Shown piece after piece: positions 14,117-18,842 of a stretch of DNA of 32,147 nt. The DNA lies in contig NZ_AQXE01000002.1 of NCBI RefSeq assembly GCF_000375485.1, positions 167,392 through 199,538 on the forward strand, in the 5' to 3' direction. The translations under genes and the position numbers were made by a program. Every line of letters begins with the position of its first letter. Within the stretch, counting starts at the first letter, position 1. The stretch comes from Desulfovibrio oxyclinae DSM 11498 (lineage in GTDB: Bacteria; Desulfobacterota; Desulfovibrionia; Desulfovibrionales; Desulfovibrionaceae). The notes below the pieces were generated by a model. It saw nothing but the letters and a program-made list of their open reading frames with translations, made no database searches and was not told the origin of the DNA.

Positions 14117-14845
14117 TCACTTTTTGTACGGCTGGTCCGAAGCGTCCGCAACCGCCGCCACAAGCGCCTCCACGCGCGACGCTCCGGCTCTGCGCAACGT
14201 CCGTGCGCACTCCCGCAAAGTGGTCCCCGTTGTCAGCACGTCATCCACGAGCAGAACGCTTTTGGCTCGGACGGTTTCAGAGTTTGCGACAAAAGCTCCG
14301 GACAGGTTTTTTCGCCGCTCCCCGGGACCCAATTCGCTCTGCGGACGCGTTGCACGGATGCGGCGCAGAGCCTTCGGGCTCAACCGTCCTCCATGCTCCG
14401 ACGTCACAGCATGCGCCAGCAGCAGGCTCTGGTTGAAGCCGCGCCAGCGAAGGCGTCTGCAATGAAGCGGGACTGGAACCACCAGCTCCGGCAGCTCATC
14501 CGTACCCCGTATGGACTCCCTCAGGATGGCGCGCAGTGGCGCGGTCATCTGGATGCCTCCGGCGAACTTCAGGCGCAGGATCATCTCCCGCAGCAGGTCG
14601 TCGTAGGCGCCATGAAAATGAATGCGCTCCCACGGCGGCGGTTCGATGCGACACATGGCGCACAGGGTCGGTTCACTGTCTGGGTCCGAGGAAAGTTCGC
14701 CGCACCGGGGGCAGTATCCTCCGGCGCGGGGGCGGAGCCTTTGTGCGCAGTCTTCGCAAAACAGCATGCCGAACGATGTTTGCGACGGGCAAAGTGTGCA
14801 CCGCCCGGCATCAAGGCCAAGGCTTCGGGCCAATCCGGCAAACAT
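14117..14845 (-). CDS. ComF-family protein (zinc finger plus phosphoribosyltransferase)
   Basis: Homologues of ComF act in DNA uptake or in nucleotide salvage-like chemistry; the biochemical role is unsettled. Of 242 residues, the N-terminal third carries paired cysteines (CTLCP, CEDC, CPRCG, CAMC) forming a double zinc ribbon. The C-terminal part is a type I phosphoribosyltransferase with the PRPP loop VLLVDDVLTTGTTL. The conserved RGFNQ motif lies between them. The chosen ATG overlaps the TAA of the upstream gene (TAATG). A GTG at 14866 would add seven residues. It is the last gene of the redox operon. Confidence 0.88.
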   Translation of the reverse strand: MFAGLARSLGLDAGRCTLCPSQTSFGMLFCEDCAQRLRPRAGGYCPRCGELSSDPDSEPTLCAMCRIEPPPWERIHFHGAYDDLLREMILRLKFAGGIQMTAPLRAILRESIRGTDELPELVVPVPLHCRRLRWRGFNQSLLLAHAVTSEHGGRLSPKALRRIRATRPQSELGPGERRKNLSGAFVANSETVRAKSVLLVDDVLTTGTTLRECARTLRRAGASRVEALVAAVADASDQPYKK

Positions 14846-15453
14846 TACGATTCCGGCCCGGTCCACGCCTCGCGACCGGCCCGCAGGAGGCGCTCTCGGG
14901 CGGACTCGTCGGCCCGCATGTCATTCGGTCCGTCCTTGCCCCGGAAATGAAGCGACTGCGCAATTTCTATCCCATAGTCCTTAAGGAAGAACCTCAGGGA
15001 GCGTTCTGCGCCTTCAAAGAGCTTTTCGCCACGCGGGCGGCCCGCAGCCATGGCCAGTGTCGCGGTGCGCGCAGGCTGTTCGACAAGCCACGACTCGCCG
15101 CGGTTCCGGGCGGCCCAGAACTGCTGCGAACGGTCCATGAGTGTCGTGAACCGCGAGGGCAGGGCATAAAAGTAGATGGGCGAGCTGATCAGGACGGTCC
15201 GGGCCTCCAGCAGAGGGCGGAACAGCTTCATGGAATCATCGCGCGGTGAGAGCACGCAGCATTTTTCCGGGGGCTGGCCCGCGGCCTTTTCGCATGCTCC
15301 ACAGGCGAGGCAGTGCTCCACGGCGTAATCGCGCACGAAGAGGACCCGGGCCTCGCCGCCGGCATCCATGACGCCCTGCGCCATGAGTTCGGCGGCGTGG
15401 TCCGTGTTGCCTCCCTTGCGGTGGCTGCATGCGAATATGGCGGCGTAGCTCAC
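14845..15453 (-). CDS. NAD(P)H-dependent flavodoxin-like oxidoreductase
   Basis: This 202-residue protein belongs to the FMN-dependent NADPH reductase / iron-sulfur flavoprotein-like group. The FMN phosphate loop SHRKGGNTDHAAE is at about residues 10-22. The ISSPIYFYALPSRFTTLMDR segment is the usual FMN and dimer region. A cysteine cluster HCLACGACE at about residues 47-55 could bind an Fe-S cluster or act as redox thiols. GTG at 15453 is the start, with AGGAG seven bases before it. It begins four bases after the selenoprotein stop, so the two are probably co-translated. It could reduce the selenoprotein or small electrophiles, but that is inference. Confidence 0.87.
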   Translation of the reverse strand: MSYAAIFACSHRKGGNTDHAAELMAQGVMDAGGEARVLFVRDYAVEHCLACGACEKAAGQPPEKCCVLSPRDDSMKLFRPLLEARTVLISSPIYFYALPSRFTTLMDRSQQFWAARNRGESWLVEQPARTATLAMAAGRPRGEKLFEGAERSLRFFLKDYGIEIAQSLHFRGKDGPNDMRADESARERLLRAGREAWTGPES

Positions 15454-15457
15454 TCGT

Positions 15458-15718
15458 CTACTCCTGTCCTGCGGCTTCCGTTTTGGACCATACCGGCTCC
15501 TTTCGCCGATAGTGGGCCACCACGTGATCCTCCACGTTCTCTATGTCCACGTCCCATTCGGGATGGATGTCCAGCACATAGAAAATCTGCGGCACGGCGC
15601 CGGGGTCTGCGGTCAGCTCAATCTTGTCCGACTTGGCGAAACGGAGATACCAACCTATCTCCATGGTCAGGCCTCAGCACTTGCCGCGAATGTCGGCGCG
15701 AACGACTTCTTCGCTCAT
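15458..15718 (-). CDS. TusA-like selenoprotein with in-frame UGA (Sec15)
   Basis: Read from the ATG at 15718 (GGAGG five bases upstream), the frame has 14 codons, a TGA at 15674-15676, and then continues open to TAG at 15458, giving 86 residues. Around the UGA the sequence reads D-I-R-G-K-C-U-G-L-T. TusA/SirA sulfur carriers start with D-x-R-G-x-x-C-P, so the UGA falls exactly on their catalytic cysteine. Downstream, a DKIELTADPGAVPQI segment fits the second half of the TusA fold. A SECIS-like stem-loop starts 11 bases after the UGA. It lies between the hydrolase and the FMN reductase genes with tight spacing. A simpler reading, a 68-residue gene from ATG 15664, leaves the conserved N-terminus and its strong ribosome site unexplained. 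The role is probably sulfur or selenium transfer or thiol redox chemistry; that part is inference. Confidence 0.83.
15643..15676 (-). promoter_or_regulatory. Bacterial SECIS element for the TusA-like gene
   Basis: After the UGA (15674-15676) come 11 bases, then GGAGATA (15656-15662 on the minus strand), a GGTTGG loop (15650-15655) and TATCTCC (15643-15649). The 7-bp stem is perfect and the loop begins with G residues. Both the spacing and the G-containing apical loop match what SelB needs in the E. coli fdhF element. Confidence 0.8.
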
Positions 15719-15727
15719 TGCCGCCTC

Positions 15728-16348
15728 CTAAAGTCCCGTGAAGAAGGGGTTATGGTTCTTCTCGTCGCCCACCGTGGTCTCGGGGCCATGGCCCGGATAC
15801 AGCACGGTCTCCGGCGGAAGGGTGAAGATGTTCTCCTCGACGGATTTCTTCAGCACGTCGAGGCTTCCGCCCGGAAAGTCGGTGCGGCCGATGGAGCGGT
15901 AGAAGACCAGATCGCCCACGAAGGCGCACTGGGCATCCGGGAAGTAGAAAGTCAGGCTGCCCTGCGAGTGACCGGGGGTGGCGAAGATGCGGCAGCGCAT
16001 TCCCGCAAATTCGGTCTCGCCGGGAGTCAGCGGCTTGAAGTCGTAGGCCGGAACCTCGGGCAAACCCATCATTCCGCCGCCACCGAGTTCGGTGTCCAGC
16101 AGGGGACGGTCGTCCTCGGAGGCAAGGATGTCTTTTTCGAGGGCGTCGGCGAGGGCCTTGTTGCCCAGCGTGTGGTCGAAGTGCAGGTGCGTGTTGAGAA
16201 TCGCGTCCACTTCGAGTCCCTGCTCTTCAAGGTACTTGAGTAGGGGGCCCGGTTCTCCGCCGGGATCCACCACCACGGCCCGGCCGCCGTCGGACAGAAC
16301 GTAGCAGTTGGTTTCGAGCGGGCCGAGGGGAATGGTCTTTACGGTCAT
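15728..16348 (-). CDS. Metallo-beta-lactamase-fold hydrolase (glyoxalase II-like)
   Basis: This 206-residue cytoplasmic protein has the full metal-binding set: THLHFDH at about residues 53-59, a later GHSQGS histidine, the bridging Asp in FVGD, and the final GHGPETTVGDEK histidine. This suggests a dinuclear Zn or Fe thioester hydrolase of the GloB group, possibly a persulfide dioxygenase relative. Its ATG directly follows the nitroreductase TAG. Its own TAG runs into the ribosome site of the TusA-like selenoprotein, so the three are almost certainly co-expressed. Pairing with a sulfur-carrier-like protein favours a glutathione-independent thiol or persulfide substrate, which is inference. Confidence 0.88.
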   Translation of the reverse strand: MTVKTIPLGPLETNCYVLSDGGRAVVVDPGGEPGPLLKYLEEQGLEVDAILNTHLHFDHTLGNKALADALEKDILASEDDRPLLDTELGGGGMMGLPEVPAYDFKPLTPGETEFAGMRCRIFATPGHSQGSLTFYFPDAQCAFVGDLVFYRSIGRTDFPGGSLDVLKKSVEENIFTLPPETVLYPGHGPETTVGDEKNHNPFFTGL

Positions 16349-16867
16349 CTAGAATTCCTCCAACATGAGGTCGGCGAGTTCGAGGCGGGTGGACGTGCCG
16401 TCCTGCGCAGGCTGTCCGATCGCGAGCACCGCCTGCAATTCCTGGGTGTCGGGGATGCCGGCCGCTTCGAGGGCCGCGTCCTGGTCGTTGATGATCTGGC
16501 CCAGCCAGACGGCTCCGAGGCCCAGGTCGTGCACGGCCAGAAGCATGTTCTGGATGCAGGCGCCCGCGCCCTGATGGTCCTTCATTTCACTGTACATGCG
16601 TTCCTTGTCGAGCGTGATGCATATAAGCGCTGCGCTCTGTCGGACCACATGGGCGTATTTGGTGCATTCGGCCAGCTTTTCCTGTCGCGGGTCGCCCGCG
16701 GGGATGACGAGAAAACGCCACGGCTGGTTATTCAGCCCGCTGGGAGCCCATCGTCCCGCTTCGAGGATGGTCAGGATGTCCTCCCGCGAGACCGCGTCTC
16801 CGGTGAACTTGCGGATGCTTCTTCGTTCTCTGATTGCCTTCAGCACTGGAGTGTCCATTTCAATCAT
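16349..16867 (-). CDS. Nitroreductase-family flavoprotein
   Basis: The 172-residue protein is a short nitroreductase-type FMN oxidoreductase. The N-terminal RRSIRKF FMN-phosphate motif (about 15-21), the APSGLNNQPWRFLVI segment (about 41-55) and the GLGAVWLG stretch are diagnostic. Such enzymes reduce nitro compounds, quinones or other electron-poor substrates with NAD(P)H. GGAG lies five bases before the ATG at 16867; a second ATG three codons in is possible. It is the promoter-proximal gene of the operon leading to comF. Natural substrate unknown. Confidence 0.9.
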   Translation of the reverse strand: MIEMDTPVLKAIRERRSIRKFTGDAVSREDILTILEAGRWAPSGLNNQPWRFLVIPAGDPRQEKLAECTKYAHVVRQSAALICITLDKERMYSEMKDHQGAGACIQNMLLAVHDLGLGAVWLGQIINDQDAALEAAGIPDTQELQAVLAIGQPAQDGTSTRLELADLMLEEF

Positions 16868-16917
16868 ATCTACTCCGGTAGTTTTGGGTTAGCCTTTGTG
16901 GGTACATTATGCAGATG

Positions 16918-16958
16918 GACGCCGCAAGTACCGAAACCCTGTGACCGGATGCGGCGTC
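16918..16958. repeat. 9-bp inverted repeat in a divergent promoter region
   Basis: GACGCCGCA (16918-16926) and TGCGGCGTC (16950-16958) are perfect reverse complements around 23 bases, in the gap between the divergent nitroreductase and ECF sigma genes. It could be an operator for either side or a leader hairpin. Confidence 0.4.
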
Positions 16959-17015
16959 ATTCGTATATGGAACTGAAACGTAGTTGTGAACCGGGGCCCC
17001 GGACGGAGTGAGAGG

Positions 17016-17561
17016 TTGAGCGAGAGCGAAGCGGAAAAGGAAATCATACGTGATGTGCAGGCCGGAGACACTGAGGCGTTCCGGTTTCTGGTGGAGCGTT
17101 ACCAGGGACCGATCTACAACCTCATGCTTCGAAGCGTGACAGAGCGTGAAACCGCTGCGGATCTGGCTCAGGAGACGTTCACCAAGGCCTATGCCGCCAT
17201 CGGCAGGTTCAACGCGTCCAAGCGGTTTTTCCCGTGGCTTTATGCTATAGGGATTAATCTGCTCAGGGACCATATGCGCAAATCCGGGCGGGAATACACA
17301 GGGATGGATCCGGATTGTCTCGGAGAAGGAGTGCCGCCCGTGGACATGCAGACCCGGCTTGATGGCCAGCGAATGGCCCAGGAGATTGAGAGGCTGCCCG
17401 AAGCCTACCGTGAAGCGCTGGTGTTGCGCTTTCGGGAGGATTGCAGCATGAAGGATATTGCCGAGGCGCTTTCCATTAGCGTGAGCGGCGCCAAGATGAG
17501 GGTTTCCAGAGGGCTTTGCATGCTCAGGAAACGATTCGGAGGCGAAAAGCATGACCAATGA
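17016..17561 (+). CDS. ECF-subfamily RNA polymerase sigma factor
   Basis: A 181-residue sigma-70-family factor with only regions 2 and 4. Region 2 contains DLAQETFTKAYAAIGRF and the WLYAIGINLLRDHMRK stretch that melts and reads the -10. Region 4 contains LPEAYREALVLRFREDCSMK and the helix-turn-helix IAEALSISVSGAKMRVSRG. TTG at 17016 has GGAG seven bases upstream and gives an N-terminus typical of RpoE-like factors. An earlier GTG at 16986 would add ten residues. It overlaps the following anti-sigma-like gene by 11 bases, the usual arrangement for a factor held inactive at the membrane. Confidence 0.9.
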   Translation: MSESEAEKEIIRDVQAGDTEAFRFLVERYQGPIYNLMLRSVTERETAADLAQETFTKAYAAIGRFNASKRFFPWLYAIGINLLRDHMRKSGREYTGMDPDCLGEGVPPVDMQTRLDGQRMAQEIERLPEAYREALVLRFREDCSMKDIAEALSISVSGAKMRVSRGLCMLRKRFGGEKHDQ

Positions 17562-18111
17562 ACGTTTTGATGACGAAATGCTTGCCAGCATGATTCGCGA
17601 AATGCCCCGGGCGGATGTCCCGGAGGGGTTCGCAGACAGGGTCATGTCTTCTCTTGAGCCGCGCAGGCCGAGCCTGTGGGAACGGCTTCTGCTGTGGATG
17701 CGCAGGCCGATCACCATCCGGATAACTCCGGTCAGGGTTATCCCGGCCATGGCTGTTGCCGCGCTGCTGATGGTGCTGGCTCTGCCTATGCAGCAAATGG
17801 CGGTCGCGCCAGACGGATCGGGGGCGGTGCCCGTGCGGTTCGTGCTCGGCAAGAATGTCGACGCGAGACAGGTGGCCGTGATAGGCTCCTTCAACAACTG
17901 GTCCCCGGACGAAGCGGCCATGCGGTACGACAAGTCGCTGGGGGCATGGGTCGCCGACCTTGAGTTGCCGCCCGGAACGCACGAGTACGTTTTCCTCGTG
18001 GATGGTGAACGCGTCGTGGCCGACCCGGTGGCGCCGCTGAGCAGGGACGACGGTTTCGGCAACCGTAATTCGGTACTGTACCTCACAGGGGATCATGAAC
18101 AGTCTTTGTAG
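17551..18111 (+). CDS. Membrane anti-sigma-like protein with glycogen-binding (CBM48-type) domain
   Basis: The 186-residue product has three parts. An N-terminal cytoplasmic helix region (1-60, with MLASMIREMPRADVPEGF) resembles anti-sigma domains. One membrane segment follows (about 64-82, RVIPAMAVAALLMVLALPM). The outer domain (about 95-186) has the AMPK/isoamylase early-set hallmarks VAVIGSFNNWSPDE, a GAWVADLELPPGTHEYVFLVDG core and a closing R-N-S-V-L-Y. GGAGG eight bases before the ATG supports the start. It overlaps the sigma factor gene, so it probably inhibits it. The external domain could sense a carbohydrate or cell-envelope polymer, which is inference. Confidence 0.85.
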   Translation: MTNERFDDEMLASMIREMPRADVPEGFADRVMSSLEPRRPSLWERLLLWMRRPITIRITPVRVIPAMAVAALLMVLALPMQQMAVAPDGSGAVPVRFVLGKNVDARQVAVIGSFNNWSPDEAAMRYDKSLGAWVADLELPPGTHEYVFLVDGERVVADPVAPLSRDDGFGNRNSVLYLTGDHEQSL

Positions 18112-18766
18112 AGTCATCCTCTTTACGACATTTCTGACGTTGCAGGCTGTCTCCGCCAGTGCGGATGACGGCCTGCAACGTTCTCACGAGGATTGGAGTC
18201 CGCAGGTGGCGGCGGTTCTCAAGCAGGCGCGGGAGCTTCGTTTCCCCACCTCGCTGCTTGAGGCCAAGGCCATGGAGGGGCGCGCCAAGCGCGTGCCTGC
18301 CGTGCGGGTTGCCGCAGTCCTCAAGGCCCACCTCGACAGTTATCTCAAGGCGCGCGCTGCGTTGGCCGATCTGCCCGGCGAGCGGGACCCCTACAAGGAG
18401 GTCCTGGCTGGCGAAGCCATTGGTTCCGGTGCTTCCGAACAGGCCGTGCGCGCCTATTTCAAACAGTTCCCCGATCAGGAGCTCGACCGCTTTTCTCTCG
18501 GTATGGACATGCTCGGCATGTTCGGCGAGCTGGATTATCCGGTCGAGGACGCCATGCGCATCTTCACGGCCGGATTCCAATCCGGTACGCTTGACGGCGA
18601 GTGGCGATATTTTTCCCGCGTGATTACCCTGACGAGGTCGCGCGGACTTTCTGACGACGCCGCGGCCAAGGTTGCCGTGGAAGTCCTGAAGGAAGGCGGA
18701 ACCGTTCGAGACGCCATGGCCCTGCTCGGGCTGACATCCAGAGGTCTTTTCGAAGAAAGGAAATAG
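18095..18766 (+). CDS. Exported hypothetical protein
   Basis: This 223-residue product begins with a hydrophobic signal peptide (LCRVILFTTFLTLQAVSASA, cleavage probably after residue 23). The remainder is mostly charged helices with no motif I recognise; RSHEDWSPQVAAVLKQA and FPDQELDRFSLGMDMLG are typical. The ATG lies 17 bases inside the upstream gene, with GGGG as a weak ribosome site, so it is translated in the sigma/anti-sigma operon. Probably periplasmic and part of the same envelope response, but no activity can be assigned. Confidence 0.8.
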   Translation: MNSLCRVILFTTFLTLQAVSASADDGLQRSHEDWSPQVAAVLKQARELRFPTSLLEAKAMEGRAKRVPAVRVAAVLKAHLDSYLKARAALADLPGERDPYKEVLAGEAIGSGASEQAVRAYFKQFPDQELDRFSLGMDMLGMFGELDYPVEDAMRIFTAGFQSGTLDGEWRYFSRVITLTRSRGLSDDAAAKVAVEVLKEGGTVRDAMALLGLTSRGLFEERK

Positions 18767-18814
18767 GGCTGTGACCACATGGCCCCTGATCCGTAAATGA
18801 GAACAAGGACGCTT

Positions 18815-18826
18815 TGTTCGCGAACA
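18815..18826. promoter_or_regulatory. 12-bp perfect palindrome, candidate operator
   Basis: TGTTCGCGAACA (18815-18826) is fully self-complementary and lies 17 bases before the start of the TPR lipoprotein gene, in a 76-base gap. A dimeric regulator could bind it, but no regulator is identified and chance cannot be excluded. Confidence 0.3.
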
Positions 18827-18842
18827 CATGGGAGTCCTGAAA

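Follow-up and report, generated by a model that had tools for sequence, protein, structure and literature searches.

Among the closest described counterparts of the gene considered here are the proteins of the TusA / SirA / YeeD family (PF01206). The gene lies in a 32,147-nt stretch of the Desulfovibrio oxyclinae DSM 11498 genome (contig NZ_AQXE01000002.1), called the window below, and very probably encodes a small selenoprotein read through a single in-frame TGA. With TusA, SirA and YeeD it shares a length of about 80 residues, the predicted fold, and the placement of its putative selenocysteine (Sec, U), residue 15, opposite Cys19 of Escherichia coli TusA, but it has no Pfam match, no C-P-x-P motif, Sec in place of Cys, an extra Cys ahead of it, and conserved positions of its own. 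Mammalian thioredoxin reductase, with its GCUG motif, has the same Cys-Sec-Gly and vicinal selenenylsulfide chemistry; fold and position are unrelated, and the likeness is an analogy only. YedF is presumably longer than the window protein and Cys-bearing, and we take its TusA-type domain to be tied to selenium use. The only PF01206 match in the window genome is a 221-residue frame elsewhere, which may be YedF. A link between the TusA-type domain of YedF and selenium use is also made in PMC4607533.

A 2026 review catalogues 119 prokaryotic selenoprotein families, several of them with adjacent Cys-Sec (KCU-star NF033934, SaoC, HgcA, MbdU and others; PMC13188914). The family described here has the same adjacent pair but differs from them in giving no informative NCBIfam match for 48 members and in placing the pair early in the chain, close to the N terminus, within a predicted TusA-like fold. 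The gene and its parts are:

15458..15718, minus strand: selenoprotein gene, TusA-like predicted fold; 86 residues plus stop when TGA is translated as Sec; same TGA at 81/83 loci
15674..15676, minus strand: in-frame TGA, putative selenocysteine, codon 15; preceded by Cys14; the sole in-frame TGA; TGC in two paralogues
15724..15729, minus strand: ribosome-binding site AGGAGG, assigned by sequence; overlaps the preceding gene's stop codon
15641..15664, minus strand: hairpin resembling a selenocysteine insertion sequence (SECIS), 9-bp stem, loop GGUUGG; assigned by comparative pairing evidence

The in-frame TGA and the frame around it

The frame starts with ATG at 15718-15716, ends with TAG at 15460-15458 and, with U at position 15, reads MSEEVVRADIRGKCUGLTMEIGWYLRFAKSDKIELTADPGAVPQIFYVLDIHPEWDVDIENVEDHVVAHYRRKEPVWSKTEAAGQE. 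Coordinates and translation bear out the original prediction of a frame running from 15718 through one UGA, and the ribosome site that it placed ahead of the ATG is present as AGGAGG at 15729-15724.

Relatives were sought, with stops translated through, in 199 genomes of the window's own family (Desulfovibrionaceae) and were found in 110 of them; TGA lies inside 109 of the 111 matching places and is lacking in two. Loci compared codon by codon number 83, i.e. 82 of the 111 places (the window's included) and the locus L001. A Cys codon at the UGA position, which the original prediction proposed to look for, is found as TGC at two of the 83 loci, both of them paralogues, while TGA stands at the other 81. 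The Cys said to precede the UGA residue is there in 81/81 TGA loci (codon TGC 50 times, TGT 31 times). The proposed D-x-R-G opening fares less well, as its G is not conserved: the third residue before the UGA residue is D in 31/81, G in 20/81 and N in 18/81. Invariant positions of the family are D9 and L25, with E20, R26 and W55 near-invariant, and the motif C-U-G-[VLI] occurs in nearly all members. The search with the window protein matched a single named genome, that of Salidesulfovibrio brasiliensis, whose relative has 70% identity and the same TGA. Outside the family but within the order, 27 genomes were matched, and the 13 loci compared have C-TGA in 12 and Cys-Pro-Cys in one (genome G290, locus L148). 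Class-wide, the family profile matched 142/247 genomes, counting those that have the Cys paralogue only. A phylum-wide draw matched 4/297 genomes, all within the window's own family and none outside, and the selenoprotein family therefore appears, within this sample, to be confined to the class. An in-frame stop within so short a frame might point to a pseudogene or a sequencing error, but the same TGA at 81/83 loci from many genera, with conserved sequence on both sides, leaves this explanation with practically no probability, and it was rejected.

The original prediction held that automated annotation would keep only residues 19-86, and this is what the databases contain. With the window protein alone as query the databases gave a single relative, a 68-residue piece whose first residue is the downstream Met, and the family profile, run against 5.8 billion predicted proteins, gave six matches: this piece, three other short pieces and two Cys paralogues. 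Such pieces would be expected if the UGA were a true stop, with a separate cistron starting at the codon-19 ATG and the upstream piece serving as a leader peptide; the 68-residue product predicted in a close relative and the three further short pieces are consistent with that. We consider it very unlikely. The position of the downstream Met (codon +4, the gene finders' start) is ATG in only 24/81 loci and CTG in 44/81, so that translation cannot generally begin there. The ratio of nonsynonymous to synonymous variation (pN/pS) is 0.28 at codons -6 to -1, 0.26 directly after the TGA and 0.75 farther on; judged by these values, the coding sequence ahead of the TGA is protein under purifying selection. 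The first strand of the predicted fold also precedes the Sec, and paralogues have Cys for the stop with the frame unchanged. Reinitiation at the downstream ATG was rejected on the ATG count, the upstream selection and the paralogue Cys. Homologues broken elsewhere in the frame, or beginning only at the downstream ATG, would have spoken for a stop; the frame is instead kept on both sides of the TGA. On this sequence evidence, it is almost certain that the gene, which a stop codon seems to break, is intact and encodes a protein containing selenium.

The Cys paralogue ('CGLVP' family, alignment A5) aligns with the selenoprotein (A4) over 78 columns without gaps, the comparison of A4 with A5 scoring 99.1%. 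It has TGC for TGA, and the residue ahead of its Cys is not conserved. Its predicted fold also has TusA-family chains among the best rows, and the one paralogue scanned has no Pfam family. The paralogue, MENIPEFDLQGVTCGLVP..., of 85 residues, was observed at L190:3643-3900 (minus strand) and, in the window genome, at L135 (contig C2:111675-111896).

The SECIS-like hairpin and the Sec machinery

The hairpin consists of ATGGAGATA (15664-15656), the loop GGTTGG (15655-15650) and TATCTCCGT (15649-15641). The stem-loop announced 11 nt after the UGA is there, in that a seven-pair core starts at 11 nt and the outer pair at 9 nt. Codons +4 to +11 of the family mostly encode x-E-[VI]-G-W-[YH]-L-R, and their third positions fit pairing of GGAG[GA]TA with TA[CT]CTCC, the loop between being often GGTTGG. 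The Leu at +10 is CTC in 78/81 genes, although CTC makes up only 46/373 of the Leu codons elsewhere in them. Among 70 distinct sequences (of the 81), 95.3% of the cells of the seven-pair core are paired and all seven pairs form in 71.4%. When codons for the same amino acid were shuffled between sequences per column, a procedure that ignores relatedness, the means were 90.2% and 44.7%, and 0/2000 shuffles reached the observed values; codons drawn by gene-body usage gave 67.2% of cells paired and all seven pairs in 3.9%. The stem shows a synonymous divergence of 0.36; the two blocks ahead of it have 0.74 and 0.60, and the block behind has 0.67. At order level, six or seven of the core pairs form at 9/12 loci, and 70/84 cells are paired overall; at the remaining three loci only 2 to 4 pairs are in register, and by eye L138 and L141 can form a shifted stem and L142 a stem with a mismatch. 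The Cys paralogues, with no need of a SECIS, lack such pairing (33/77 cells). By this comparison, synonymous positions behind the TGA are under constraint to form a SECIS-like hairpin.

In the window genome SelA, SelB and tRNA-Sec each score over cut-off, so the absence of SelB that would have counted against the original prediction was not found; of the genes it proposed to look for, only SelD was not found. Within the family, SelB is over cut-off in 167/199 genomes, many of them without the gene, which is therefore an optional selenoprotein. Eight of the 110 genomes with a match lack a strong SelB, with at most six candidates scored per genome and most of those assemblies fragmented. In one genome (G031, locus L186) selB is a near neighbour: about 1.1 kb separates it from the selenoprotein gene, the two are on opposite strands, and a gene for a universal stress protein stands between them.

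Some read-through occurs in bacteria, and general suppression could in principle put a different amino acid at the UGA, with no Sec. This is extremely improbable beside the SelA, SelB and tRNA-Sec of the genome, the SECIS-like constraint and the Cys at the site in paralogues, on which grounds non-Sec read-through was rejected.

The predicted fold and its relation to TusA

The predicted structure has the TusA-like beta-alpha-beta-alpha-beta-beta fold, with the first strand ahead of the Sec. From the aligned ranges, Sec15 falls on residue 19 of 1dcj, residue 11 of 3hz7 and residue 387 of 8k1r, the Cys residues marked by the TusA profile, if there is no gap before residue 15 and residue numbers match. 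The TusA fold is thus a feature of the predicted structure, and the position of the reactive residue at the TusA catalytic Cys is likewise predicted. To this extent the original description of a TusA-like protein with UGA at the catalytic Cys is supported; its sequence counterpart, a match to the PF01206 profile or a CPxP motif, is not. Membership of PF01206 by sequence was rejected, as 48 members are without the TusA model and hhalign gives 3.1%, and the Cys paralogue does not serve as a bridge to TusA (3.4% only, though Asp and Cys are in register). The best chance match in the scans of the 48 members was Pfam PF25726 (E 0.0058, one member), and when the family profile was run against PDB sequences only three matches came up, all at E 0.69 or worse.

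Several results weigh against a recoded UGA in a TusA-like protein. Neither the window protein nor any of the 48 members matches PF01206 at E 1 or better, and nearly all members have C-U-G-[VLI], the active-site motif C-P-x-P being missing; TusA stretches of the phylum have C-P-x-P in 27/30 and C-P in 30/30. A plain Foldseek comparison with the PDB yielded nothing at E 0.001 or better, with another small fold at top rank. The disregard of relatedness in the codon shuffles has been mentioned, and no Rfam family reaches gathering thresholds in the window. The lone hairpin folds no better than shuffled sequence (z -0.57; 48/200 shuffles equal or better), and the case for it therefore rests on comparison. 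SelD was not found in the window genome, an assembly of 32 contigs; among 21 genomes searched together it is over cut-off in 20, in each case with an in-frame TGA in SelD itself, the exception being the window genome (G000), and the missing SelD is likely an assembly gap. With these points counted, it still seems very probable, from sequence comparison and modelling, that UGA15 is decoded as Sec by way of SelB, tRNA-Sec and the hairpin, and that the product has a TusA-like fold with Sec at the catalytic Cys site and an invariant neighbouring Cys (C-U-G).

Neighbouring genes and possible function

The genes around the selenoprotein gene are:

15728..16348, minus strand: metallo-beta-lactamase-fold hydrolase, directly upstream, probably co-transcribed (PF00753, E 1.9e-32)
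14845..15453, minus strand: flavin mononucleotide (FMN) reductase / flavodoxin-fold protein, next gene downstream, its four-Cys motif being of the Fe-S flavoprotein type (PF03358, E 1.4e-10)
14117..14866, minus strand: ComF-like phosphoribosyltransferase, next in the cluster, probably unrelated (PF00156; TIGR00201 below cut-off)

Hydrolase, selenoprotein and flavoprotein genes follow one another on one strand with almost no gap. Counted by tblastn, which replaced an over-strict motif-based count, a flavoprotein relative lies downstream at 66/81 Sec loci and a hydrolase relative upstream at 62/81 (the window's locus in either count); both are present at 62/81, and neither at 15/81 within the available stretches, some of them short. 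At order level the flavoprotein is adjacent in 13/13 loci and the hydrolase in 8/13. A downstream frame has CxxCxxC...C, which we take to be the cluster motif of iron-sulfur flavoproteins, at 66/83 loci. Two loci without these neighbours show other surroundings (L187 and L189): in G025 a MoeA-like gene is close by, and in G069 the selenoprotein gene directly follows one for a GDT1 cation exchanger. Upstream of the hydrolase, the window has at 16349-16867 and 16860-18829 a nitroreductase and two frames of 408 and 248 residues, the frames matching neither Pfam nor NCBIfam models at E 1 or better.

The one TGA-less gene among the 13 order-level loci, that of G290 (L148 / L193) with Cys-Pro-Cys in place of Cys-Sec, still adjoins relatives of both hydrolase and flavoprotein. 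Among the nine order-level genomes tested, all except G290, which has neither, show SelB and tRNA-Sec over cut-offs; the G290 genome is 85% complete, so that this absence is no proof. In G205, of the same genus, SelB, tRNA-Sec and the TGA are all present.

We tentatively propose that the protein relays sulfur or works in redox reactions by means of selenium, on a scaffold like that of TusA. The selenolate would attack a persulfide, a polysulfide or some other oxidised form of sulfur, the selenium adduct would be resolved by Cys14 as a Cys-Sec selenenylsulfide, and the co-encoded four-Cys FMN flavoprotein would reduce the Cys-Sec pair, feeding in electrons. Cycling of the pair between selenol and selenenylsulfide is suggested by the invariant Cys14, the C-P-C of G290 and the linked flavoprotein, and sulfane sulfur as the substrate by the TusA-like scaffold.

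TusA feeds wobble-uridine thiolation. In the window genome the Cys paralogue lies directly behind mnmE and jag (the mnmE neighbourhood was Pfam-checked there), and mnmE is directly ahead in 4/11 paralogue loci, the window genome included, as recognised by the C-terminal motif of MnmE. These are hints of a tRNA-thiolation role for the paralogue, possibly as a TusA-like partner in wobble-uridine modification. Together with the part played by TusA, the mnmE linkage also counts for a different function of the selenoprotein, as a plain TusA-type carrier of sulfane sulfur or selenium on a single residue (e.g. toward SelD or a tRNA-modifying enzyme), with Cys14 structural. This would compete with the Cys-Sec mechanism and not with recoding, and it agrees with the predicted fold, the predicted catalytic position of the Sec, and a paralogue in which the preceding residue is not conserved. 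We think it rather doubtful, given that Cys14 is invariant in Sec forms (81/81; order-level 12/12), that C-P-C for C-U in G290 suggests a pair, and that the flavoprotein linkage points to electron transfer.

Database novelty was judged on Pfam and NCBIfam (release 20.0) models: there was no convincing match in either, and NCBIfam was uninformative for all 48 members. No such entry appears by name among the 119 families of the review, whose table gives accessions and not sequences, so that absence was assessed from names and motifs together with the NCBIfam scan; TusA and SirA are mentioned nowhere in the review's text (PMC13188914). NCBIfam has models for many families of that table. A search of open-licence literature found no paper joining selenoprotein, TusA, Desulfovibrio and selenocysteine; TusA is named as a transcript affected by selenium supply in PMC11097638. 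According to a paper on a 2025 deep-learning predictor, selenoproteins without Cys homologues may be filtered out (PMC12013277), which could explain omission of the family from the catalogue. With open-licence papers as sources, the family is apparently not yet catalogued.

A selenoprotein family common in much-studied sulfate reducers is without a model in the Pfam and NCBIfam copies searched, and it shows how a selenoprotein with few Cys orthologues can escape homology-based searches. Within the sources covered, it would be the first TusA-like fold to have Sec at its active site. A relay running through this lineage of sulfate reducers is conceivable, if unlikely: the Cys-Sec protein would take sulfane sulfur (or selenium), the Fe-S flavoprotein would reset it, and the Cys sister would serve tRNA thiolation beside MnmE. 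The Cys paralogue in the same cell, the C-P-C orthologue in a genome without detected Sec machinery, and the linked flavoprotein offer natural comparisons.
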